A stretch of 64,000 bases of DNA. It comes from Gammaproteobacteria bacterium (GTDB lineage: Bacteria > Pseudomonadota > Gammaproteobacteria > Pseudomonadales > Pseudohongiellaceae). Of this stretch, positions 6,365-24,337 are shown in pieces. The notes below the pieces were generated by a model. The model had not been told where the DNA came from and did not search any database. It was given only the letters and a program-made list of their open reading frames with translations. Location of the stretch: contig JAURWS010000012.1 of assembly GCA_030654835.1 (NCBI GenBank), forward strand, positions 62,001 through 126,000, written 5' to 3'. Position 1 is the stretch's first letter. Every line of letters starts with the position of its first letter. The position numbers and the translations under genes are program-made.

Positions 6365-8983
6365 GTGATCTCTGACCTTGTTGATCTTGTTGCTGACTGG
6401 TACTGGGAGTTGGACGCTGATCTGCGCTTCACGCAGCTCAAAACCCTGAACGGTATCAAGAACAGCGACTTCACTGCGCAACGCTGCCTGCATAAGCAAT
6501 TGTGGGAAACGGACTTCGAGGTACAGGTCGGCACGGACTGGGATGCTCAACGTCAATCGCTGGAACAGCACAAGCCCTTGCACGACCTGATTATTCACCG
6601 GCCTGTGCAAAGCGGTGAGGAGTGTTATCTCAGCCTCAGCGGCAAACCTGTGTTTGACAGTGCGCAGCAGTTCACCGGTTATCGTGGCATTGCCAAAGAC
6701 GTAAGCGCCTTCCAGCGCAACTATGAAAACCTCTCCCGCTTTCGCGAGGCCATGGATATGTGTGGTGATTCCATTTATCTCACCGACGTCTCGACCATGA
6801 CATTCCTCGACGTGAATACCACTGCGTCTGAAAAAATGGGGTACACGCGCGCCGAATTGCTGAAGATGGGGCCGGTCGATTTGTTGATGGCAGATCGTCA
6901 GTCATTGCAAAAGGGTTTCCAGGCAGTCATCGACGCCGGAGCGCAGGGTGTGAAACTGGAATCGACGGCGCTGTCCAAAACCGGTCAAAAATCTATCGCT
7001 GAAGTGCACCGGCGGCCCATGAAGGTGGGGAACCGCTGGATCATCGTCAGCATTGCGCGCGACGTGACCGCACGCAAGCGTGCTGAAAGCGCCGCTGTGC
7101 GCCTTGGGCGTATGTATGCAGCGCTCAGCGCCACGGAGGAGGCCATTCTGCGTACCCGTTCGCCTGCAGAGCTATTTCAGCGCGTGTGTGATGCGGCTGT
7201 CGACGGTGGAAAATTCCTGACGACTGCTGTCCTGCTTAAAAAACCGAACGACAAAAAACTGCATCTTACTGCGGGCAGTGGTCATGGCCTCGAAGTGCTG
7301 CAGACCACGGATATTTCCCTTGATGAGACACAGCCTTCTGGACGTGGCCTGGTCGGCACTGCCTGCCGTACCGGGAGGTCGCGTGTCAGCAATGATTATG
7401 CTCAAGACCCGGACACTACCCCCTGGCATGCCCTGGCACAGCAGATCGGTATTGCCGCAGCCACAGCGGTGCCTATTCGCCGAGGTCACGACACCATCGG
7501 CGCACTGCTGTTTTACTCAGATGAAAAATACGCATTCGATGCAGAGATCGTGGCGCTGCTGGAGCGCATGACAGAAAGCATGGTGTATGCGCTGGATAGC
7601 TTTGACCTGGAGGCTGAGCGCATCCGCAATCAGGAACATATTCACTACATTGCCACCCATGATTCCCTCACCAGCCTTCCCAATCGCGTGATGTTTCACG
7701 AGTTGCTGCACCATGCCGTGGAAAGCGGCAAGCGTTACGGCCGCAAGTTCGCTCTGTTCTTCCTCGACCTCGATCGATTCAAGTTCATTAATGATTCGCT
7801 GGGGCATGAGGCGGGCGATATTGTGCTGCAGGAAATGTCTGAACGCTTCAACGCCTGCTTGCGTGCCAGCGATGTGGTGGCCCGTCTCGGTGGTGATGAA
7901 TTTGTGATTCTGCTTAGCGAGATCAACACGACAAGACAAGTGACCGTTACGGCGAAGAAGCTACTTGCCGCCGCGATTAAACCGGTTAGAGCGCTTGGAC
8001 AGGATTGTCGAGTGACTGTCAGCATTGGCATCGCGTTATTCCCAAGGGATGGTGGTGATGAAACAACACTGATGAAGAACGCGGACATGGCGATGTACCT
8101 TGCCAAGGAAGAGGGGAGAAATAATTTCCACTTTTACTCCGCCGAGGTCAAGGCTCATTCACTGGAGCGCATGATGCTCGAAACCGGGTTGCGAAATGCT
8201 CTGCATCGCAACGAATTGTCGCTGCATTATCAGCCAAAAATGGACTCCAGGACTGGCCGAATCAACGGTGTCGAAGCGTTGCTGCGCTGGCATAGTCCGG
8301 AACTCGGTCAGGTATCACCGATGCAGTTGCTCCCGGTGGCGGAAGAGACCGGCCTGATTATCCCCATCGGTCGCTGGGTGCTGAAGACCGCGTGTGAACA
8401 GAACGTTGCCTGGCAGCGCGAGGGTCTGCCACCCATCTGTGTGGCGATCAATCTCTCGGTACGCCAGTTTGACGACCGTGATCTGCTGATCGATCTCGCA
8501 ACAGCTCTGCAGGACAGTGGCATGGCTCCCGAATTGCTCGAACTCGAGTTGACAGAAAGCATGGTGATGCGCGATGTAGAGCACGCCGTCACTCTGCTGA
8601 AAGCCATCAAAGACATGGGCATACGTCTCGCCATTGATGACTTCGGGACGGGCTATGCCTCTCTCTCGCAAATAAAGCGTTTTCCTATCGATACCTTGAA
8701 AGTGGATCGCTCTTTTGTGCGTCAGATTGGTCTCGATCCTGTTGACAGCACCTCCGAGAATACTGAAAACCGGTCAATTACCGATGCGATTCTTGCCATG
8801 GGTAAGACACTGAGCCTGACGGTGGTTGCTGAAGGCGTCGAGACACTGGAGCAGGAGCAATACCTGCGGCAGCACAACTGTGACGAAATGCAGGGCTACT
8901 ATTTCAGCCGACCGCTGACGGCCGGAGATTTTTCGGTAATGCTGCGAGAGAATGATGAATCAGGCAAGGGAGTAGCACTTTGA
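6365..8983 (+). CDS. PAS-PAS-GAF-GGDEF-EAL cyclic-di-GMP protein
   Basis: This is a bifunctional-type c-di-GMP turnover protein. Order: a PAS domain (DLVADWYWELDADLRF), a second PAS (SIYLTDVSTMTFLDVN, ending at an ITARKRAE-type linker), a GAF domain, a GGDEF domain with intact GGDEF at residues 509-513, and an EAL domain with EALLRW from residue 637. An RxxD inhibitory site (RASD) lies exactly five residues before GGDEF, so the cyclase half probably has product inhibition. No membrane segment is visible, so it is predicted cytosolic. The frame is open back to 6233, but the upstream 44 residues look like non-coding DNA; the GTG at 6365, preceded by AAAGGGAA, starts directly on the PAS domain (872 aa). 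The pirin gene overlaps its stop codon. Confidence 0.85.
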   Translation: MISDLVDLVADWYWELDADLRFTQLKTLNGIKNSDFTAQRCLHKQLWETDFEVQVGTDWDAQRQSLEQHKPLHDLIIHRPVQSGEECYLSLSGKPVFDSAQQFTGYRGIAKDVSAFQRNYENLSRFREAMDMCGDSIYLTDVSTMTFLDVNTTASEKMGYTRAELLKMGPVDLLMADRQSLQKGFQAVIDAGAQGVKLESTALSKTGQKSIAEVHRRPMKVGNRWIIVSIARDVTARKRAESAAVRLGRMYAALSATEEAILRTRSPAELFQRVCDAAVDGGKFLTTAVLLKKPNDKKLHLTAGSGHGLEVLQTTDISLDETQPSGRGLVGTACRTGRSRVSNDYAQDPDTTPWHALAQQIGIAAATAVPIRRGHDTIGALLFYSDEKYAFDAEIVALLERMTESMVYALDSFDLEAERIRNQEHIHYIATHDSLTSLPNRVMFHELLHHAVESGKRYGRKFALFFLDLDRFKFINDSLGHEAGDIVLQEMSERFNACLRASDVVARLGGDEFVILLSEINTTRQVTVTAKKLLAAAIKPVRALGQDCRVTVSIGIALFPRDGGDETTLMKNADMAMYLAKEEGRNNFHFYSAEVKAHSLERMMLETGLRNALHRNELSLHYQPKMDSRTGRINGVEALLRWHSPELGQVSPMQLLPVAEETGLIIPIGRWVLKTACEQNVAWQREGLPPICVAINLSVRQFDDRDLLIDLATALQDSGMAPELLELELTESMVMRDVEHAVTLLKAIKDMGIRLAIDDFGTGYASLSQIKRFPIDTLKVDRSFVRQIGLDPVDSTSENTENRSITDAILAMGKTLSLTVVAEGVETLEQEQYLRQHNCDEMQGYYFSRPLTAGDFSVMLRENDESGKGVAL

Positions 8984-9864: not shown

Positions 9865-11073
9865 CTAAATTTTTTCGATCACCTCTTCCAGCAGCGTGAT
9901 GTCCAGCGGTGATACGCCTGCCTGCCGGAAGTGATCTCTCCATTCAGAGGCAATATGCGAGATTTCCTTGATGATGCTGCTGGCCTGCCCGGAAGACAGT
10001 CCAAAGGCGACGGCGGCGCTCTTCACGTTGCTCATGCTGCGTCGTCTTCCTTCTGCGCCAATCCCTAATGCGTGCTCCCGGTTTTGCGAGATGGTGGGTA
10101 CGATGTCAAAGGCAGGCGACAGACGCCAGCCAGGGTTGGCCGGGTTGTACAGACAACCATGGTTGCGGCCATGATCATCGATGTTCCCCATGATCACATT
10201 GAACACTATGCGCCGGTACAGTTGTTCGATGTCCGCAGACCAGTCTCTGGCGTGCGAGCGCAGGATCTTGCCAATCGCGACATAGCTGCAGGGGTCGTTG
10301 AATGCATTATCAAAAATTCGAATGCGATCGCGATTGAACAGGCTGTGAATGCTGATGTAGTGCAGCTGCTGGTTATTCACTCTGTCGAATCTCTCTATCA
10401 GAAACACATCACGTTCTCCGATGCGTCGAAGTGAGACATTGGGCACGTCAATCTTGCATAGCCGGGCCAGCTGGAGTGTCGCGAATTCGACCATGGGCAT
10501 GTTGACCAGATCCGCTGGCTTGCTGAATTTGGCGAGGTAATGCACGCCATTGTCCTGCAAGGTCACTTTTGGTCTGGCTCCGCCCATGGTGGTGGCTGGG
10601 ATCAGGATTTCCAGAAGCTTCGGGTCAATGCGCTGATTCAATGAAATTTTCTGGGAAGCCTCTTCGAGATCGGCGAGAAGCTCCATACCTGCGGCGGGCG
10701 TTGGTGATTTGGGGCGTGTGCGCGACAGTGAGAATTGCAGACAACCGACGCCGTGGCCGCTGGTGGCCACCAGCCTTTCCAACTCATTGGCCGGGCTGCG
10801 GGTGTGGCCCAGCAGCAGAACTCGGGTGCCCCAATCGTCTGGCGCAGCATCGCTGAACACGGGGAACACCTTGTTCTCATTGCGAGTCGTGATTTGACCG
10901 CTTGTCAGCTTGAGGTTTACGGGATCAAGCGCATAGGCCCAGGATTCCTCAAGCCACTGTTCGGAATAGGCGAAGGTGCCGGATGTGCGGGTAATTGCCA
11001 GTTTGCCTGCGAGCACAGGATTGCCAGCGGGGCTCTGTGCGAATACGTAAGCCTCGGTGATCGGACTGTTCAT
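9865..11073 (-). CDS. hipA: HipA-family serine/threonine kinase toxin
   Basis: This is the toxin of a type II HipBA module. Known HipA kinases phosphorylate glutamyl-tRNA synthetase and cause growth arrest; the target here is unproven. In the 402-aa chain I see the N-terminal HipA domain, a P-loop-like segment (MGGARPKVTL), the lysine region LAKFSKPAD, the catalytic loop MGNIDDHGRNHG and the metal-binding segment LSPAFDIVPT, so the kinase appears intact. The ATG overlaps the stop codon of the upstream hipB gene by 4 bp. The gene order hipB-hipA is the canonical one. It is convergent with the pirin gene. Confidence 0.88.
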   Translation of the reverse strand: MNSPITEAYVFAQSPAGNPVLAGKLAITRTSGTFAYSEQWLEESWAYALDPVNLKLTSGQITTRNENKVFPVFSDAAPDDWGTRVLLLGHTRSPANELERLVATSGHGVGCLQFSLSRTRPKSPTPAAGMELLADLEEASQKISLNQRIDPKLLEILIPATTMGGARPKVTLQDNGVHYLAKFSKPADLVNMPMVEFATLQLARLCKIDVPNVSLRRIGERDVFLIERFDRVNNQQLHYISIHSLFNRDRIRIFDNAFNDPCSYVAIGKILRSHARDWSADIEQLYRRIVFNVIMGNIDDHGRNHGCLYNPANPGWRLSPAFDIVPTISQNREHALGIGAEGRRRSMSNVKSAAVAFGLSSGQASSIIKEISHIASEWRDHFRQAGVSPLDITLLEEVIEKI

Positions 11074-11375
11074 CTCCGTATCCTCATGCTGGCCCGGAGC
11101 GCACGGCCCTCGCTGTCAAGGTGAGGGCCAGCGACATCGCGAAGCGTGTGAGTTAGCTCCAGCACGTCCAGCACAGCCAGTACCGCGCCAAAGGAGACGG
11201 TGAGGCTTGCGTTCTCGATTGCCTGATAGGTTGCCAGTGACATCAGACAACGACTGGCCATCTCCCGCTGACTGAACTTGCGCGCTTTGCGGGCTTCCGC
11301 AATATTGCCCGCCAGCACCTGGTAGTCGTCGATGGCATTGACCGATACGCTGGCCAGAAACTTCTTTCCGGACAT
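11070..11375 (-). CDS. hipB: HipB-like XRE-family antitoxin
   Basis: A 101-aa protein with a helix-turn-helix of the XRE/Cro type (AEARKARKFSQREMASRC, then SLATYQAIENASLTVSFG). It precedes and overlaps hipA, so it is the likely antitoxin and autorepressor. The basic C-terminus (ALRASMRIRR) may be a flexible tail, as in other HipB proteins. A strong inverted repeat lies 25-63 bp upstream of its start codon and is a good candidate for its operator. Confidence 0.85.
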   Translation of the reverse strand: MSGKKFLASVSVNAIDDYQVLAGNIAEARKARKFSQREMASRCLMSLATYQAIENASLTVSFGAVLAVLDVLELTHTLRDVAGPHLDSEGRALRASMRIRR

Positions 11376-11442: not shown

Positions 11443-14400
11443 CTATTTCAACAGGCTAAGCAGCGTTTCCTTGTCCACAGGCTGACCGACGGAGCCAGCC
11501 TCGTTGAACAGATTGTCGGCCAGCGCCTGCTTTTGCTGCTGCATCTGCTGAATGCGCTCTTCCACCGTGTCGGCGGCTACCAGTTTGTACACAAACACGG
11601 GTTTGTCCTGACCAATCCGGTGTGCGCGGTCGGTGGCCTGATTTTCCACCGCCGGGTTCCACCACGGATCCATGTGGATGACGACATCCGCTGCGGTGAG
11701 GTTGAGGCCGCTGCCTCCAGCCTTCAAGCTGATCAGGAATATGCGCACCGCGCCACTCTGAAACAGATCGATGGCCTCCTGGCGTTTGCGGGTTTGCCCC
11801 GTGAGTTTTGCGTAACCGATGTTCTGAATCTTCAACTCTTCTTCGATGAGAGCGAGCACTTCCGTAAATTGTGAAAAGATCAGAATGCTGCGACCTTCGT
11901 CCAGTAACTGGGGCAGGGTCTCATTGAGCCATTCCAGCTTGGCGTGCTCGCGGATGTTGGCCGCCTTTTCCAGTTTAACCAGACGCGGGTCGATGCAGGC
12001 CTGACGCAGTTTCAGCAACGCATCCAGAAACTGGATGTGGCTGCGCTGCATGCCCTGGCTGGTGACCAGATCGCGAATGCGCTTTTCCATACTCACGCGA
12101 ATGCTCTCGTACAGCGCACGCTGTTTGCCCTGCAATTCCACGTATTGCACGATTTCAGTCTTGGCGGGAAGTTCTTTGACCACCTGACTCTTGGTGCGCC
12201 TGAGCATAAAGGGGGCGACCCGGCGCGCCAGTGCCTGCTGGCGATCGTGATTGCCGCTTTTTTCTATCGGATTCCTGAATTGGTCTTGAAAGGTTTTGCG
12301 TCCGCTCAGCAGCCCCGGCAGCACAAAGTCCATCAGCGACCACAGCTCGCCGAGATGATTTTCCAGTGGTGTGCCTGTCAAACACAGGCGCATCTGACTG
12401 TTCAGGTTGCGCACATGCTGAGTAATTTTGGCCGTCGGGTTTTTGATCGCCTGAGCTTCATCCAGAATCAGCACACTGAAGGTGTGCTTCTCGTACTGTT
12501 TTCTGTCTCGCAACAACAACGGGTATGTGGTCAGCACGATATCGCTGCGCTTGATTTCCTTGAACGCAGACGCGCGGTCCGGGCCATGAATCAGCGTGAT
12601 CTTGAGGTCTGGTGTGAACCGCGCGGTCTCGTGCATCCAGTTTCCAGTCAGGCTGGTCGGCGCGACGATCAATGCTGGCTGAGTCAGCGCACCGCTATCT
12701 TTCAGATGTTGCAGGAAAGCCAGCGCCTGCAGCGTTTTGCCCAACCCCATATCGTCAGCGAGGATGCCGCCGAGACTGTAACGCTGCAAAAATGCAAGCC
12801 AGTTGAGACCATCCTGTTGATAGGGGCGCAGCTCTGCCTGAAGCTTCGGCGACACAGCGAGAGCTTCGATACCACTGAAGTCCTGCAGCTGCGTCAGCAG
12901 CGCTCTGGTCAATGGCGCTGCGCGATCGTCGAGATTCGGCAGGTCCTGCAACTGTGCGACTTGAAAGGCTGCAAGGCGGATGGGCTTGTTGAGTTGTTTG
13001 CGCGAGTAAAGCTCGGTGATCAGGTCGCGTATCGTGTTAAGCGGCGTGGTATCGACGCGCACCCATTCGCCGTCGACCGTCACCAGCATTTTTTCCGGCG
13101 TGCCACGGCTCAGCCACATTTCGACGATGGTGGCGGTGTTCAGCTGACGCCCTTCGCTCAGCGGCAATGTCAGGGCCAGCTCGAACCAATGGTTGGGTTG
13201 GTCGTGAATAGCAAAGTCGAATGCGGTATTGGTGACGTTCAGACTGAAATCATCAGCGCTGCGGATCTGCCAACCCGACTTCTCCAATTCTGGAATCTGA
13301 GTATCAATAAAGTGCTGCCAGAAAGGGACCAGCTCCTCGGCTGCGGCAGGCTCCGGAGACCATGCATATCGATGTTCGGCCAGTGGGTCAAACAGGGAGA
13401 GACCAAGTCCGTGCAAGTGTTCTTCGTACTCGGATTCCTGATGGTAATCCCGGTGGATCTGGTAATGCTTGCCATCAATCAGGCGCGGCTCGTATACGGT
13501 TTTCGCGCCAGCCACATAGGTGGGGGGGCATGACTCACTGCCATGGTCTCCACCATACTCGTAGTGCAGCAGCACGGCTGGCAGCCTGGCGTCCGGAAAC
13601 ACCTGAGCGAGCACCAGTGTCAGGCACGGAACCGGCTGATTGACTTCGATGAACTCGGGCACTTCAACGGGGACGGCCAGCTGATCCTGCTTGAATACCT
13701 GCCTGAGTTTCAACGCTACGTCGGAAATCTTGTCCAAGGGGACAGGTGGCATTTTTCGCAGGTGCGCGAATTGTTGTGCAGCAAGTGGCGTGATGAGTTC
13801 GCCGATTTCTGCGGACTCGATATCCAGATAGCACGGCGGAACCGTTTCAATCATCAACCATTGATTGCGACCTGTGATACAGGCTTGCAGCGCATAGTGG
13901 CTAGCAGTCTGGTCCCAATGCCATTGCACTGTCTCCGGTTTCGCTCGCGTTACCGGTCGCCCGGCGAGCAGGATTCGCCTGCTGTTCAGCATATGCTCCA
14001 ATGCCAGTCGTGTGGCTTCCCCACTCAGTTCACAAGTTGTGTATCCCGATACTCGCGGTAACAACTGCAATATGGTGAGGTCGAGTGGTTGCAGATGACG
14101 TGGGGTATTCCAGCGCAGGGAATAGTAATCAGGCATGTAATTTGTTAGCTGGCTCCACCTGCCGTCCTTCTTCAGGTAGGCCTTCTTCAGAGCTACGTGT
14201 ACCTGAGTTCTGACAACCACCAGTTCGTACAGCAGGTAGTGCTGGCCGGGAGTGAGCGTGTCTTCTGGTTTCGCGAGCGCTGTGGGTAATTCAGTCAACC
14301 AGGTTTCCAGTGCGGACGGTTCTTGCTTCTGCTTCTGTTTGGAAATGGTAATGGCACGGGCCATGGATGCCCCGGCGCTGTTTTCCTGCAGCCATTGCAA

Positions 14401-14649
14401 CGCGGCTGCAACGGCGTGTTTGCAGTCGCTGCCAATCGGGCAACTGCAGTCGCCAATCAGAATTCCGTTGTCCAGGCTCAGTTCCACGCGATAAGTGTTG
14501 CGGCCTGATCCTTTGACGTTGGCGATAAACCTGGATTGCTCCGGGTAATCCTGTTTGATCGTGGCGCGCCGCTGGTGGTAATACTGAACGCCACGGTTGA
14601 ACGTTGCCCCGGGGGCCATTTCCTTGATGTCGTTGATGTTGAAGTGCAT
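11443..14649 (-). CDS. SWIM zinc-finger SNF2-family helicase
   Basis: A 1068-aa DNA-dependent ATPase. A SWIM zinc finger lies near the N-terminus (Cys68, Cys70, Cys76, His78; DCSCPIGSDCKH). A long middle region precedes the SNF2 core: motif I DDMGLGKT, motif II LILDEAQAIKN, motif III LTGTPLENHLGELWSL, and the helicase C-terminal half with SLKAGGSGLNL and ATDRAHRIGQ. All ATPase motifs are intact. The frame is open to 14712, but the ATG at 14649 begins directly on the conserved N-terminus. Such HepA-type proteins are widespread in bacteria, and their exact role is poorly defined. hipB starts 68 bp after its stop, but has its own putative operator. Confidence 0.88.
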   Translation of the reverse strand: MHFNINDIKEMAPGATFNRGVQYYHQRRATIKQDYPEQSRFIANVKGSGRNTYRVELSLDNGILIGDCSCPIGSDCKHAVAAALQWLQENSAGASMARAITISKQKQKQEPSALETWLTELPTALAKPEDTLTPGQHYLLYELVVVRTQVHVALKKAYLKKDGRWSQLTNYMPDYYSLRWNTPRHLQPLDLTILQLLPRVSGYTTCELSGEATRLALEHMLNSRRILLAGRPVTRAKPETVQWHWDQTASHYALQACITGRNQWLMIETVPPCYLDIESAEIGELITPLAAQQFAHLRKMPPVPLDKISDVALKLRQVFKQDQLAVPVEVPEFIEVNQPVPCLTLVLAQVFPDARLPAVLLHYEYGGDHGSESCPPTYVAGAKTVYEPRLIDGKHYQIHRDYHQESEYEEHLHGLGLSLFDPLAEHRYAWSPEPAAAEELVPFWQHFIDTQIPELEKSGWQIRSADDFSLNVTNTAFDFAIHDQPNHWFELALTLPLSEGRQLNTATIVEMWLSRGTPEKMLVTVDGEWVRVDTTPLNTIRDLITELYSRKQLNKPIRLAAFQVAQLQDLPNLDDRAAPLTRALLTQLQDFSGIEALAVSPKLQAELRPYQQDGLNWLAFLQRYSLGGILADDMGLGKTLQALAFLQHLKDSGALTQPALIVAPTSLTGNWMHETARFTPDLKITLIHGPDRASAFKEIKRSDIVLTTYPLLLRDRKQYEKHTFSVLILDEAQAIKNPTAKITQHVRNLNSQMRLCLTGTPLENHLGELWSLMDFVLPGLLSGRKTFQDQFRNPIEKSGNHDRQQALARRVAPFMLRRTKSQVVKELPAKTEIVQYVELQGKQRALYESIRVSMEKRIRDLVTSQGMQRSHIQFLDALLKLRQACIDPRLVKLEKAANIREHAKLEWLNETLPQLLDEGRSILIFSQFTEVLALIEEELKIQNIGYAKLTGQTRKRQEAIDLFQSGAVRIFLISLKAGGSGLNLTAADVVIHMDPWWNPAVENQATDRAHRIGQDKPVFVYKLVAADTVEERIQQMQQQKQALADNLFNEAGSVGQPVDKETLLSLLK

Positions 14650-14722
14650 GGTGGCTTCTTGGTCTTGTGTCGAGGGTTGTCTGAGTTGGGGATGAGGTCG
14701 GGGAATATACAATAATCAGGAG

Positions 14723-14917
14723 GTGGCAGAGCTGATTTTTTGCGTATTTATCTTTGTAATGACAACGACGTTATGGGCAGTTAGGCTCTCTGGTGTCCGT
14801 ATCAAACGAGCTATCATCATAAATCGTACAAATTTTATTCTTGATGCAGCCCGCGCGGCGGCGGAAGAAGCCTTGTTTGATCAAGTGGTTTTGCCATGGT
14901 GTTCGGTGGTTGGATGA
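14723..14917 (+). pseudogene. possible remnant of a DUF1778 (TacA-like) antitoxin gene
   Basis: Between the SNF2 gene and the secreted-protein gene, a short open frame encodes RTNFILDAARAAAEEALFDQ (about 14839-14898). This resembles the core of DUF1778 ribbon-helix-helix antitoxins, which normally pair with GNAT toxins. The upstream part does not look like the family N-terminus and no toxin gene follows; the repeat element at 14931 begins instead. I treat it as a broken fragment. The similarity is from memory of the family pattern only. Confidence 0.35.
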
Positions 14918-14930
14918 TGGTTTGATTGAT

Positions 14931-15034
14931 GGGAAAAATGGCCGGAGTCTGAGAAAAACGTCCGGGAATGGCTTCTTTTTGGGAAAAATAGCCGCTGGGT
15001 TCGTCTGAGTTTGGTTCTTCAGGTCATTTTTCTC
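14931..15034. repeat. decayed copy of the multi-site GAGAAAAA-nnGCCG array
   Basis: Three 15-bp sites on the + strand start at 14931, 14951 and 14981 (for example GGGAAAAATGGCCGG and GAGAAAAACGTCCGG). The 20- and 30-bp spacing is the same as in the array at 17756. A degenerate inverted site sits at 15020-15034, exactly where the fourth site is expected. The DNA between sites is also similar, so the two are direct copies. The fifth and sixth sites are not recognisable, and the next gene's stop codon lies at 15054. Confidence 0.75.
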
Positions 15035-15053
15035 GCGGGCGGGCCTTTATGCC

Positions 15054-16076
15054 CTATGGGTACGCTCCCACAGGTTGCGGTGCCTCGCGGGCATCCTGCT
15101 CCTGTCGACGCGCACCAGCCAGCGCACCAATGATGGAATAGTTGCCTTCGTGGCAGGCATATTCGTACAGCTGAGTGCCTGCAGGCAGCGCCCGCAGCGG
15201 CACCTCTGCGGTCCAGGGCTGCGAGAAGCCCTCCGGGTCATTCACCGTCACCCGATAATTGATCTGCTGCGGCGATTCCAGGCTGAACCATTCCGTGGTG
15301 GTCAACGCGCCCGTGGAACCCCGGAACGACTGTTGCGGATGAATCTTGTCCGTAGTCACCACCAGCGTGTCCCCCTCCCAGTGTCCGACCGAGTCGCCCA
15401 TCCAGCGAAACATTCCTTGCAGCAGTGGTTCGTCGTCGATGCGGATGATGCGGGCGTCATTGACCATCTCGGTCATGATCATCAGATAGTCGGGCGTCTG
15501 CACGATCCGGTAATTGCTGTTGTAGGACATGGGCACCATGGGCGGGCCGGCAGGAGACAGCACCGACAACAGGCAGCGCTCCCCCACAGTGCGCAGCTCG
15601 GGGCCATCGAATTCGGCTACGCCCGGGCGGGCCAGCATCTGCGAACGCCAATCCCTCGGGCCACCTTCTGGAGGTGGCGGCAGGCGACCATTGGGAGGAT
15701 CGATGATCAGAGAAGTGCGAGCCTCGCCGTTGACGGTGACCACGCTGGTGTCGGGAAATTTCCAGTCTGCTTCCAGCCCGATGGGCGCGCCTTTTTCTGG
15801 TGGTGCGCGATCGGGGTCGATAGGCGCCGCCTCGCGCTCAATGCGGGCCGCAGTATTCACCACCTGCTGCGCAGCTTCCTCCGGGGTATACGCGCGCTTG
15901 TCACCCAAGGCCTCCGGGCGTTCCAGCGGGGTCTGGGTCTCGTTGGTCCACACTCCCTGAAAATTCGGCTTGCCGTCGGGCGTGCGGGGAATCTCGGCGG
16001 GTTGGGCGAGTGCTCCGGCATTCAGCGCGAGCAGGAGGGCGGATAGCATTGTGGCGGAAGGATTTGCTTTGAACAT
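15054..16076 (-). CDS. secreted protein of unknown function
   Basis: A 340-aa protein with a clear Sec signal peptide (start MFKANPSATMLSALLLALNA, cleavage likely after ALAQ). Recognisable features are the opening TPDGKPNFQGVWTN, a proline-rich segment (NGRLPPPPEGGPRDW), a repeated GHWEGDTLVVTT-type beta segment and the C-terminal YEYACHEGNYSIIGALAGAR. I have seen this combination in uncharacterised secreted proteins of Gammaproteobacteria but cannot assign a function. The frame is open to 16208; I chose the ATG at 16076 because the signal peptide begins there. It diverges from the CMD-repeat gene. Confidence 0.7.
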   Translation of the reverse strand: MFKANPSATMLSALLLALNAGALAQPAEIPRTPDGKPNFQGVWTNETQTPLERPEALGDKRAYTPEEAAQQVVNTAARIEREAAPIDPDRAPPEKGAPIGLEADWKFPDTSVVTVNGEARTSLIIDPPNGRLPPPPEGGPRDWRSQMLARPGVAEFDGPELRTVGERCLLSVLSPAGPPMVPMSYNSNYRIVQTPDYLMIMTEMVNDARIIRIDDEPLLQGMFRWMGDSVGHWEGDTLVVTTDKIHPQQSFRGSTGALTTTEWFSLESPQQINYRVTVNDPEGFSQPWTAEVPLRALPAGTQLYEYACHEGNYSIIGALAGARRQEQDAREAPQPVGAYP

Positions 16077-16311
16077 GAGGGCGGTGGCTCCGGATATCAC
16101 GACCTGCGAGTGTAACCGCGTGGGGCGTTGCGGCTGATGCGGCATAGTGTCGCGCGTCGGTGTGCCGCTGGCGTTGATATGCATCAAGCCTCCTTTCCTG
16201 GCTATCACTCTGGCGTGCTATTGTCGGCCGCATGCCAGGGAGCTGTTGCGTGGATGTCATGCGCATCGCCTCAGGCGGCATTCCGAACAATATGCAGACG
16301 GGAGGAAATCC

Positions 16312-17370
16312 ATGCCACATATGAAATTCCGAGTGACATCACTGCTGCGCGTCTGGTTGCTGGGCGCATTGTCGGTACTCTTCTTCGAGCCGTTCGGGTC
16401 GTTCGGGCTGTTCGGGCCTGCGGCTTTCGCGCAGCAGCCCCCGCCACCGCCAGGCGCCTATGACGCCGCCCCCTATCTGGGGCAGATACGCAACGACTAT
16501 GTTTATGGCGATATCTGGGAACGGCCCGGCCTGTCGCTGCGGGACCGCAGCATGATTACTGTCGCGGTGACCCAGGCTCTTAATGCGGCCAGTGAACTGC
16601 GCCTGCACATGGGGCGGGCGCTGGACAATGGCCTGACCGAGGGGGAGATCACGGAGATCATTGCGCAGGTGCAGTGGTATTTCAGTCTTCCCGCCGAGGT
16701 TGATGGCGCTGCCATCGCCGCCGAAGTGTTCACGCAGCGTGGGCTGCCCGAAAGTCCTGCCGGAGCGGCGTCCAGCCTCTCGGTCGAGCGTCCTGCCGCT
16801 ACAGGCCCTGCGCCATTTCCTGATAGCACGGCGCTCTCGCCCCGGGATCGCAGCCTGATCACCGTGGCCCTGAGCACCGCCTTGTACGCTTCCGGCACGC
16901 TGCGCGTGGAAGTCGAGCGGGCACTGGACAATGGCGTGACGCAAGACGAACTCGCCGAAGCCATCACCCATGTCACGTTCTATTCAGGCTTTCCCACCGG
17001 CGTGAATGCCGCGCGCGTCACGGCGGACGTTCTCGCGGCCAGAGGCCTGCCACTGGGTGACGGGCGTTTCCCTGCCGCGCCCTATCTGGAAGACTTGATC
17101 GACGGGCTGGTCTTTGGGGAAACCTGGACTCGTAGCCCCCTGTCTGCGCGCGAGCGCAGCCTGGCCACCATCGCCGTCACCCTCGCCAACTATCAGTCCG
17201 AGCAACTGCGCACCCACCTGGAACGGGGGCTGGACAATGGTCTGACCGTGCAGGAGATTGCCGAGTTGATCGCCCAGGTGACGCTCTATTCCGGATTTCC
17301 GAGCGGGCTCAATGGCTCGCGTATTTTCGGCGAGGTGCTGCGGGAGCGGGGCCTGGAAATGCCGAAGTGA
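16312..17370 (+). CDS. exported protein with three carboxymuconolactone decarboxylase (CMD)-like repeats
   Basis: A 352-aa protein with a signal peptide ending AFAQ, then a Pro-rich linker and three repeats of about 100 residues. Each carries LSxRxRSxxTxAxT, an (A/G)LDNGxTxxEI helix and a final YSGFP-type turn (residues ~45-140, ~165-245, ~255-345). CMD/AhpD-like folds normally form oligomers of single domains and are cytosolic. Only the middle repeat keeps the histidine typical of the family (ITHVTFYSGFP); the others have Gln at that position (IAQVQWYF, IAQVTLYS). An excellent ribosome site (GGAGG at 16301) fixes the ATG at 16312. Decarboxylase activity is doubtful. Confidence 0.8.
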   Translation: MPHMKFRVTSLLRVWLLGALSVLFFEPFGSFGLFGPAAFAQQPPPPPGAYDAAPYLGQIRNDYVYGDIWERPGLSLRDRSMITVAVTQALNAASELRLHMGRALDNGLTEGEITEIIAQVQWYFSLPAEVDGAAIAAEVFTQRGLPESPAGAASSLSVERPAATGPAPFPDSTALSPRDRSLITVALSTALYASGTLRVEVERALDNGVTQDELAEAITHVTFYSGFPTGVNAARVTADVLAARGLPLGDGRFPAAPYLEDLIDGLVFGETWTRSPLSARERSLATIAVTLANYQSEQLRTHLERGLDNGLTVQEIAELIAQVTLYSGFPSGLNGSRIFGEVLRERGLEMPK

Positions 17371-17439
17371 GGGGAAGGCGACGTTAGATCGGAATTCGCA
17401 GTGGCGAATTTCGTCGCTCAGATTCGCAGACCTCGCTGC

Positions 17440-17643
17440 TCAGGCGTCCATCGCATCGTCGGCCTGCTCGAAGAGAGACTGCTGTTCGGGAATCGAGATG
17501 CCATTGGCCTCGCAGTGCTTGCGGATCAGCACCTCGATCAGATTGGCGATAGAGCGGTGGTCCTGCAACGCGGCGATGCGGGCAGCTTCCTTGATGCGCG
17601 GGTCGATGCGCAGGTTGAGCGTGGCGGTTTTGGAGGGCGTCAT
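17440..17643 (-). CDS. small ribbon-helix-helix DNA-binding protein
   Basis: A 67-aa protein with the Arc/CopG-type pattern: a short beta strand TATLNLRIDP, helix 1 RIKEAARIAALQDH and helix 2 SIANLIEVLIRKHCEA. Such proteins are dimeric repressors or antitoxins that bind short repeated operator sites. There is no toxin gene beside it on the same strand. It is transcribed away from fic, and the six-site array occupies the gap between the two genes, so it is a candidate for the protein that reads the array (inference). The C-terminal tail is acidic. Confidence 0.7.
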   Translation of the reverse strand: MTPSKTATLNLRIDPRIKEAARIAALQDHRSIANLIEVLIRKHCEANGISIPEQQSLFEQADDAMDA

Positions 17644-17755
17644 GGTGTGGTGTTAAAAATAAAAACAATACTGGCACCTTTATGGAAAGGCGTATGCACC
17701 AGAAGAGCAGTAACCATCATCTGTTTCGTATCCGCTGGCAGTTGAGTTGATTTCA

Positions 17756-17909
17756 GAGAAAAATGGCCGGAGCCTGAGAAAAACAGCCGCGATTGGCTTT
17801 ATTTAGAGAAAAATAGCCGCTATGCTCGCTCGAGTTCGGAATATCCGGCTATTTTTCTCATAGAATTTGTTTTTCCGGATGTTTTTCTCAGACTCCGGCT
17901 GTTTTTCTC
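17756..17909. repeat. mirror-symmetric array of six 15-bp sites upstream of fic
   Basis: Sites with consensus GAGAAAAAYRGCCGS lie on the + strand at 17756-17770, 17776-17790 and 17806-17820, and on the - strand at 17845-17859, 17875-17889 and 17895-17909. Start-to-start spacing is 20 then 30 bp on the left, and 30 then 20 bp on the right. The start and end of each mirror pair sum to the same value, so the symmetry is exact. All spacings are multiples of about one helical turn. A -10-like CATAAT (17909-17914) touches the last site, 27 bp before the fic start. The array looks like a cooperative protein-binding region or the ends of a small mobile palindrome. Confidence 0.85.
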
Positions 17910-17940
17910 ATAATACCCTTGCCACACGGATAACGAGTTC

Positions 17941-19482
17941 ATGGCAATACCGCTAGGTTACAGCGAACTGATATCGCGCTATCAACTGCGAACTTTGCCG
18001 CTATGGCAGATCGCAAAGCTGGACGGCAGCATCAAGGGAAGAGAAATCCGTCAGCAGGGAGGGCAGCGCATCGAGCTGTTCGAGCCCAAATACCAACCAG
18101 AAGACTCATTGGCCGGGCACCTTCAATTTGCATTGCGCTATGAAGGCGTGAACCTCCAGGTCCTGGCACTGCTCTTTGAAGGTACCGGCGCGGAAGACCT
18201 GACCCAGTGGCTCACAACTAATCCCGAGTCGCGCTATGCGCGAATCGCCTGCTTCCTCTACGAGTGGTTAACAGCAAGGGAACTGCCAATGGCAGACCCG
18301 GTGTCGTCCCGTTCGCGTTATGTGCTCGCAGTCGACTCCGAAATACAATGCGTAGGCGCAGACGGCATCAAATCGCAGCGCTTCCGCGTCATCAACAATC
18401 TCCCTGGGCCCCGTGAATTCTGCCCCATGGTGTTTCGAACGGAATTTCTGAAGAAAAAGCAGGACCAAGATCTCAAAAATCTGACGATCGAAACACTGGC
18501 GCGCTACGATCAGGATCTTCTGCGTCGTGCAGCTGCCTACTTGTACATGAAGGAAACTCAGTCGTCCTTCGAAGTGGAGCGCGAGAAACCCACACCCCAG
18601 CGCGCTCAACGCTTTGCCGACTTGTTGCGGCAGGCAGACACCCGCGACGAGCTCAGCGAAGAGAGGCTGGTGGAACTGCAACAAGCAGTCGTCGACCCGA
18701 GATTTCATGAATTCACGTGGCGAACGCAACAGAACTGGGTTGGTAAAGATCTCGGCCACCGCCACCTGATCGACTTTGTTCCAGCGCGTCCCGAGCACCT
18801 GCCCAACCTGATGAATGGATTGCTACGCATGGCGTCCATGTTTCAGTCTCAGGAGCATTTGGCGCAAAAAGGCGCCAAAGAATATGCCCCGTTTGACCCA
18901 GTAGTTGCAGCTGCCGGTATTGCCTTCGGTTTCGTCTTCATTCACCCGTTCATGGATGGCAACGGCCGAATTCATCGTTACTTGATTCACGATGTGCTGG
19001 CCAAAGCCGGCTTCACACCAAGAGGATTGGTCCTGCCAGTATCACCAGTGATACTGGGGAATCTGGATGAATACATCAGTACGCTGGAACAATTCTCACG
19101 CCCTCTGAATCAGATGACCGACTACAATCCCGATGCACCGGAGATACCGGCCACCGGCAATGACTGCGTTTACTTCCAATACCCGGATCTGACGGTCCAA
19201 GTGGAATTCCTGTACACGGCGCTCGAGCGCACAGTAACGCACGATCTGCAAAAGGAAATCGATTTCCTGCTCGGCTTCGACCGGGCCAGCAAAGCATTGA
19301 ACGAACTACTCGACTGGCCTGCACACGACGTGGATATATTCATCCGGGTGGTGCAGGGTAACAACGGAAGACTTTCCAGCAACAAGCGCAAGAGTCATTT
19401 CGCCTGGATGAAGGAAGATGAAATTTTGCAGGCGGAAGTAGCTGTCCGAGAGGCTTTCGCTATGACATATACACATCGGTGA
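17941..19482 (+). CDS. Fic-domain protein (probable AMP/nucleotidyl transferase)
   Basis: A 513-aa protein with an intact Fic motif at residues 335-346, HPFMDGNGRIHR. It contains the catalytic His, the acidic metal ligand and the arginines, so it should transfer AMP or another nucleotide moiety to a target hydroxyl. The first ~100 residues form a conserved-looking domain (LGYSELISRYQLRTLPLWQI), and a helical C-terminal domain follows the Fic core. I do not see a clear (S/T)xxxE(G/N) inhibitory helix; the segment FALRYEG is the closest and lacks the Ser/Thr. The last ~10 residues run into an IS3 remnant on the opposite strand, so the original C-terminus may have been replaced. The promoter lies in or beside the six-site array. 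Confidence 0.88.
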   Translation: MAIPLGYSELISRYQLRTLPLWQIAKLDGSIKGREIRQQGGQRIELFEPKYQPEDSLAGHLQFALRYEGVNLQVLALLFEGTGAEDLTQWLTTNPESRYARIACFLYEWLTARELPMADPVSSRSRYVLAVDSEIQCVGADGIKSQRFRVINNLPGPREFCPMVFRTEFLKKKQDQDLKNLTIETLARYDQDLLRRAAAYLYMKETQSSFEVEREKPTPQRAQRFADLLRQADTRDELSEERLVELQQAVVDPRFHEFTWRTQQNWVGKDLGHRHLIDFVPARPEHLPNLMNGLLRMASMFQSQEHLAQKGAKEYAPFDPVVAAAGIAFGFVFIHPFMDGNGRIHRYLIHDVLAKAGFTPRGLVLPVSPVILGNLDEYISTLEQFSRPLNQMTDYNPDAPEIPATGNDCVYFQYPDLTVQVEFLYTALERTVTHDLQKEIDFLLGFDRASKALNELLDWPAHDVDIFIRVVQGNNGRLSSNKRKSHFAWMKEDEILQAEVAVREAFAMTYTHR

Positions 19483-19786: not shown

Positions 19787-20126
19787 TTATTGCGCAATAC
19801 TAGCTCACTGCATGTTCTCTGAAACCCGGCGCTAAGGGCGACTGACTACAGTCGCCCATTGCCTATTACTGCATGCGATTTTGGGAGTCGGGCAAAATAT
19901 GGGCTTCAAGTTCGATGCGCTGCAATCGTCGACCGCTTAGCTCGATCAAGCCCTGATAGCGCTGCTCTCCTGTCGAAGTAAACTCAAACCCATAGCGTCT
20001 GCGTAATTGCAAAGACCCGAAGTCATTACGGTGCGGCCACACCTGTGGTTTAGTATAGGCCAGGAACACCGATATGAAACGCTTGCCAACTCCCATAATA
20101 AATCAAACAAAAAGTTGCAGACTCCT
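19787..20126. other. gap between IS remnant and amidohydrolase gene
   Basis: This 340-bp stretch holds no convincing gene. It probably contains remaining, unrecognisable IS-adjacent DNA and the promoter of the amidohydrolase gene. One short - strand frame (separate entry) is the only candidate coding sequence. Confidence 0.5.
19866..20096 (-). CDS. small open frame, possible gene fragment
   Basis: This 76-residue frame ends EAHILPDSQNRMQ. The segment YGFEFTSTGEQRYQGLIEL alternates like a beta-rich domain, so it may be the C-terminal piece of a lost gene. There is no recognisable family, and no ribosome site supports the start. It lies beside an IS remnant, where fragments are expected. Confidence 0.2.
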   Translation of the reverse strand: MGVGKRFISVFLAYTKPQVWPHRNDFGSLQLRRRYGFEFTSTGEQRYQGLIELSGRRLQRIELEAHILPDSQNRMQ

Positions 20127-24188: not shown

Positions 24189-24260
24189 TGTTACGATAAC
24201 TTCATGCGCTACACAAGGTTTAGCACTAGCTTCTCAGAACTTCAAGTTGCTCAATGAAAT

Positions 24261-24337
24261 TGGTGCCCCGGGCAGGATTTGAACCTGCGACCTGTCCCTT
24301 AGGAGGGGACCGCGCTATCCAGCTGTGCCACCGGAGC
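24261..24337 (-). tRNA. tRNA-Arg (anticodon CCT)
   Basis: A full cloverleaf can be folded. The acceptor stem pairs GCTCCGG with CCGGGGC, the anticodon stem pairs GTCCC with GGGAC around loop CTCCTAA (anticodon CCT), and the T arm is GCAGG-TTCAAAT-CCTGC. CCA is encoded. The D stem has one mismatch. Reading is on the - strand. It lies beside an accessory region and could act as an integration target, but no duplicated tRNA end is seen. Confidence 0.95.

Follow-up and report, generated by a model that had tools for sequence, protein, structure and literature searches.

Within the 64,000 nucleotides analysed here (the window; genome G000), an array of short mirror-image sites stands before a fic gene, and about 2.8 kb upstream lies a second, incomplete array. 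The question is what this half-copy belonged to and how it came to its present place. The earlier note had called it a decayed direct copy and had offered two origins: either the enclosed genes inserted between the copies, or the half-copy is the scar of a second fic locus.

The intact array consists of six 14-bp sites, three on each strand, with start-to-start steps of 20, 30, 40, 30, and 20 bp, and all six fall into this register. It spans 154 bp and ends 31 bp before the start of fic (17909 to 17941); as defined from the relatives, such an array has a fic start codon some 30–50 bp beyond it. The Fic protein matches the PADLOC profile PDC-S24 over residues 3–508 (555.8 bits) and Pfam PF02661 (E = 1.1e-14) and carries the Fic motif HPFMDGNGR at residues 335–343. 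In PADLOC, PDC-S24 is a candidate phage-defence family only, and a literature search found no paper naming it. Pfam gives the Fic domain alone, and no HTH family was recognised in the protein. Its structure model is poor (mean pLDDT 47). No relatives of the protein were found on viral contigs. Two eukaryotic microRNA models from Rfam covered the intact array at scores far below their gathering scores and were ascribed to the inverted repeat. The array is probably the operator of the PDC-S24-type Fic family.

Between 13.5 and 19.5 kb, the longest direct repeat is formed by 14911–15034 and 17736–17859, with 92 of 124 positions identical (74%) at an offset of 2825, which bears out the direct copies about 2.8 kb apart that the earlier note had seen. 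The sites it had listed at 14931, 14951, and 14981, with 20- and 30-bp spacing, repeat the steps of the intact array with one mismatch each, and the degenerate fourth site that it had placed at 15020 lies on the minus strand at 15021–15034, with two mismatches. The offsets 0, 20, 50, and 90 (steps 20, 30, and 40) are exactly those of the intact sites at 17756, 17776, 17806, and 17846. All four remaining sites are thus in register, and sites 5 and 6 are missing. The claimed common inter-site sequence is also real, as 31 of the 48 spacer positions are identical; the best other place in the window, on either strand, reaches 25.

When the intact 124-mer was slid along the window, the mean was 30.6 identities (sd 4.9), and position 14911 scored 92. 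The next scores were 58, where the intact array overlaps itself, and 57 at 6759. The latter place was rejected as a further copy; it falls within a coding gene, where the in-register positions carry no sites (6–12 mismatches). The gapped alignment of the two copies scores 137, compared with a maximum of 59 in 200 shuffles. With up to three mismatches, the site motif occurs at 27 places in the window (14.7 expected, at most 23 in 100 shuffles). Places with no or one mismatch are confined to the two arrays, site 4 of the half-copy has two mismatches, and three two-mismatch places lie outside both arrays. Single sites with one mismatch occur seven times elsewhere in G000 and twice in the backward control, and they were treated as chance.

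Table 1 Features of the half-array locus and of the intact fic operator region (window coordinates)
Feature	Position	Strand	Remarks
SWIM/SNF2 helicase gene	11443..14649	-	upstream region now holds the half-copy
Segment where three relatives have a GGDEF gene	14693..15088		G012 homology stops at 14692, restarts at 15089
Possible TacA1-like antitoxin gene fragment	14822..14893	+	Pfam PF08681, E = 0.0066, 16.8 bits, curated cut-off 21
Half-copy of fic operator array, sites 1–4	14911..15034	+	92/124 identical to 17736–17859
Half-copy site 1	14931..14944	+	GGGAAAAATGGCCG, 1 mismatch to GAGAAAAAYRGCCG
Half-copy site 2	14951..14964	+	GAGAAAAACGTCCG, 1 mismatch to GAGAAAAAYRGCCG
Half-copy site 3	14981..14994	+	GGGAAAAATAGCCG, 1 mismatch to GAGAAAAAYRGCCG
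Half-copy site 4, inverted	15021..15034	-	GAGAAAAATGACCT, 2 mismatches to GAGAAAAAYRGCCG; end abuts the REP-like repeat
REP-like dispersed repeat	15033..15074	+	GCGGGCGGGCCTTTATGCCCTnTGGGTACGCTCCCACAGG; includes stop codon of secreted-protein gene
Secreted-protein gene, enclosed	15054..16208	-	last codons and stop within the REP-like repeat
Carboxymuconolactone decarboxylase (CMD)-repeat gene, enclosed	16324..17370	+	
Remnant, last 11 codons of RHH partner gene	17422..17454	-	E = 5e-4
Ribbon-helix-helix (RHH)-like small gene (name from the earlier note)	17440..17643	-	94% DNA match over 17454–17652 in G009 and G010
Remnant, last 22 codons and stop of DrmD-like SNF2 helicase gene	17682..17750	+	82% over 22 residues, E = 6e-12
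Intact six-site inverted array	17756..17909	+	layout common to relatives
Intact array sites	17756, 17776, 17806	+	
Intact array sites	17846, 17876, 17896	-	
Fic gene, 513 aa	17941..19482	+	PADLOC family PDC-S24

The clear damage to the half-copy is the loss of its right end. To this extent the word “decayed” is apt; as regards the sites themselves it is not, since the arrays of intact relatives hold sites with at least as many mismatches. The right end is abrupt: beyond site 4, 13 of the next 50 positions match the intact array. The left edge fades at about 14899–14911, and 12 of the first 20 positions match. To the left of 14929 alone, the match was not significant in the gapped alignment, nor was the match of the left flank to the helicase tail. 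The left neighbour is the TacA1-like fragment, a short open frame with a Pfam score below the curated cut-off; the half-copy sits among fragments.

The right neighbour is a repeat which we take to be of the REP/BIME type. Like such repeats, it is short and dispersed, has GCTCCCAC/GTGGGAGC-like ends, and is present in many copies in the genus. In each of G000, G009, G010, and G012 (seven candidates scored per genome), several further places match at 90–98%, and weaker or fewer matches are found in G002 and G008. Copies in the genus often have an inverted partner to their left, whereas the window copy is a single unit without one: a loose left-arm word precedes 11 of the 16 copies that were read (the window's included), and none was seen beside the window copy.

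How tightly is such an array tied to fic? Fic relatives of at least 60% identity occur in G007, G016, and G020 (among 57 genomes) and on the genome contigs L047, L048, and L049. Five of the six, all full-length and 63–68% identical (G007, G016, L047, L048, L049), have an array of the same layout before fic; in G020, fic is truncated and no sites were seen. These arrays, the starts of which were placed by eye, are mirror images with the same steps within 1–3 bases. Six of six sites have at most two mismatches in the window and in L048, four in G007, and two each in G016, L047, and L049. Eight tblastn queries were run (Fic in two versions, helicase, methyltransferase, restriction enzyme, RHH, RHH partner, and MazG), and only Fic adjoins the array in all of L047, L048, L049, L050, and L051.

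Among more distant Fic loci the picture is mixed. A 10-mer repeat measure was positive (at most 2 of 60 shuffles reach the count) at 9 of 20 loci, the window included, and negative at 11; it found no upstream repeat array at 9 of the 14 more distant loci and also missed the array of G016. Hence, the association of array and fic is firm for close relatives only. It is suggestive for others, such as the distant relatives L110, L111, L112, and L113, in which a different, TTTTCGA-type repeat occurs several times before the gene; these are perhaps other operators of the same design. A two-site pattern was found in 1 of 390 genomes of the order (G000 only) and in 3 of 14 genomes of the genus (G000, G007, G011), and a central-pair pattern in 1 of 369 genomes of the class (G000 only). 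As both patterns are strict and miss the array of G016, these counts exclude close copies only. No description of such a Fic operator array was recognised in the literature, where coverage of subscription journals is thin, and nothing relevant was found on relic operators.

The history of the locus can be read from relatives. In G010, a single contig carries a mazG-like gene (on the opposite strand), the RHH gene, its partner gene, the GGDEF gene, and SNF2. G009 has the same order on two contigs, with GGDEF cut by the contig ends, and also the amidohydrolase gene that is found to the right of fic in the window. The G012 contig starts in the secreted-protein gene and continues with GGDEF and SNF2. 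No array is present at the locus in any of these three genomes, and GGDEF occupies the position of the half-array in all of them. From the break in the G012 homology, GGDEF was likely replaced in the window lineage by a 396-bp segment with the half-array. The homology to G009 stops to the left of fic at 17652 and resumes at 19817, and the mazG-like gene lies there. Hence, the fic block stands where mazG stood, and mazG appears to have been replaced by it in the window lineage. By the same comparison, the RHH gene predates both arrays at this locus.

Two remnants remain from these changes. The partner gene follows RHH in G007, G009, and G010, and the DrmD-like helicase gene stands whole before array and fic in G007, whereas the window retains 11 and 22 codons of them, respectively. 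These remnants attest to repeated partial deletion.

Several side observations were made in the neighbourhood. In G007, contig C31 (L050, 5018–18638) carries in a row RHH, its partner, the DrmD-like SNF2 helicase, a six-site array, the PDC-S24 Fic, a type III methyltransferase, a type III restriction enzyme, and a putative integrase; this looks like a defence cassette that includes Fic. Over 15089–15281, the secreted-protein gene end matches G012 contig C3 (1–193) at 193 of 193 positions, although SNF2 next door is only 92% identical; a recent exchange or a contig artefact is possible. Beside SNF2, a HipA-like gene and an HTH partner gene (9865–11375) likely form a toxin-antitoxin pair. A tRNA-Arg(CCT) gene lies at 24261–24337, a few kb to the right of fic, and a G006 contig with a relative of the CMD-repeat gene ends in an identical 43-bp stretch (window 24258–24300). 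The tRNA region may be an integration hotspot.

We favour a relic operator as the reading of the half-array, left as a scar when another fic locus was lost, and give this reading about an even chance of being correct. To the right of the half-copy, no fic follows; what lies there is the REP-like repeat and a gene read from the opposite strand. Therefore, we class it as a relic and not as a complete member of the operator family. In the proposed scheme, the intact array is most likely autoregulatory: Fic dimers would bind the mirror-image 14-bp sites, all on one face of the helix, and repress fic. A second fic locus would have replaced GGDEF upstream of SNF2, and the half-copy would come from the left side of its operator. 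This locus would then have been lost by deletion, whose end point, or that of a subsequent join, would lie at site 4, against the REP-like repeat. Since the window Fic shows no recognised HTH and its structure model is poor, Fic is inferred as the binder. The former fic to the right of the half-array and the order of events are inferences too.

Signs of decay at fic loci support the scar. The helicase gene is cut to 22 codons in the window, fic is truncated in G020, and in L047 a stretch of 30 residues from the helicase N-terminus survives. A further orphan array is found in G011, where contig C96 carries two perfect sites 20 bp apart at 13631–13664 (about 5632–5665 of L165). Their spacer, GAGTCT, is that of the half-copy; a third site is poor (7 mismatches), and there are no further ones. 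The pair stands directly before a gene that is acetyltransferase-like from reading its translation. No PDC-S24-type Fic was found in G011 (best Fic match E = 1.1e-4). As two independent half-arrays now stand without fic, relics of this kind appear to recur. On the other side, no convincing coding remnant of fic, helicase, methyltransferase, or restriction enzyme was found beside the half-copy (best E 0.04), so the second fic locus of the earlier note stands as the best reading but is unproven. The lack of a recognised HTH in Fic, and of an upstream repeat array at 9 of the 14 more distant loci, weighs against this reading as well.

The main rival, a local partial duplication, is unlikely but plausible. 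In that case, as this unstable locus was rearranged, the left-hand portion of the intact array, together with a short piece of the helicase tail, would have been copied 2.8 kb upstream and would then have drifted. The direct orientation, the short distance, and the spacer match favour a local copy and count against the scar: at 31/48, the window pair is the best match of all arrays compared, as either window array matches the others at no more than 23/48, and the best match involving another genome is 26/48 (G016 and L047). The gapped alignment runs a few bases into the helicase tail, although this extension by itself is not significant. The age of the copies fits badly. Of the 48 spacer positions, 17 differ between the two arrays (Jukes-Cantor 0.48, 95% interval 0.26–0.84), more than the synonymous distance of SNF2 between G000 and G012 (0.247), while the relatives suggest that the half-copy arrived after these two genomes split. 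A half-array that arrived after the split would have differed from the intact array already, and this speaks for a separate fic locus rather than a local copy. The margin is small, as the clock rests on 48 positions with an interval that barely clears 0.247, and the argument could fail if whole stretches were imported.

It is quite unlikely that the arrays are operators of another protein and not of Fic. The lack of a recognised HTH in Fic would agree with this, and a chromosomally unlinked regulator would fit as well, but of the eight proteins sought, only Fic adjoins the array in all of L047 to L051.

It is very doubtful that the half-copy works as a second operator at which bound Fic controls SNF2, with the G011 pair doing likewise for the acetyltransferase-like gene. 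Sites 1–3 are each one position off the consensus, as are sites of relatives, and the G011 pair is perfect and directly before a gene. Between the two copies, the sites diverge less than the spacers (7/56 vs. 17/48, p = 0.009). Selection on one or both arrays would produce such a difference, and so would selection on the intact array alone. The start of the SNF2 gene, on the minus strand, is far from the half-copy (about 280 bp), and the mirror half of the array is lost. A single promoter-like match was seen near the half-copy; it lies on the plus strand and is no better than shuffles (1, mean 0.8).

That an inserted composite segment is bounded by the two copies, or that the enclosed genes inserted between them, is scarcely credible and was rejected on the evidence of the relatives. 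Direct repeats do surround three genes, but RHH is native to the locus in the array-free G009 and G010, GGDEF adjoins the end of the secreted-protein gene in G012, and none of the three genomes has the empty site that the earlier note had proposed to look for, in which 14.93 kb would run into 17.76 kb. Since RHH is present in G009 and G010 and GGDEF occupies the half-array position, the enclosed genes did not come in together between two copies. The arrangements of the relatives argue that RHH, the secreted-protein and CMD genes, the half-array, and the fic parts were gained or lost in separate steps.

Fic proteins are known mostly as AMPylating enzymes. CccR from Yersinia pseudotuberculosis is a regulator with a Fic domain and a C-terminal HTH, which represses its own gene via two inverted 10-bp boxes 26 bp apart (PMC9755527). 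The window fic resembles it in having inverted-repeat boxes before its own gene, and the central pair of the intact array, with sites taken as 14 bp, is also 26 bp apart. The differences are that in CccR a single pair of 10-bp boxes (46 nt) is protected, whereas the window has six 14-bp sites over 154 bp in steps of fixed 10-bp multiples, and that the box sequences differ. Binding is demonstrated for CccR (PMC9755527), while the window sites are putative and the window Fic has no recognised HTH.

As a long shot, orphan half-arrays may still be live. The PDC-S24 Fic would then be a DNA-binding regulator of a small regulon, or the arrays would be recurrent joining points for cassette swaps. If the latter is true, fic-linked defence cassettes are swapped in and out and leave a half-array behind, once in G000 and separately in G011. 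Under the preferred reading as scars, relic half-arrays would provide a footprint for counting past gains and losses of fic loci in genomes that now lack the gene. The half-copy draws attention to an unusually regular switch region common to related Fic genes. If a defence-candidate Fic is indeed controlled by a conserved, strictly phased six-site mirror-image operator, direct tests of this control, and perhaps of the trigger of Fic, would become possible.
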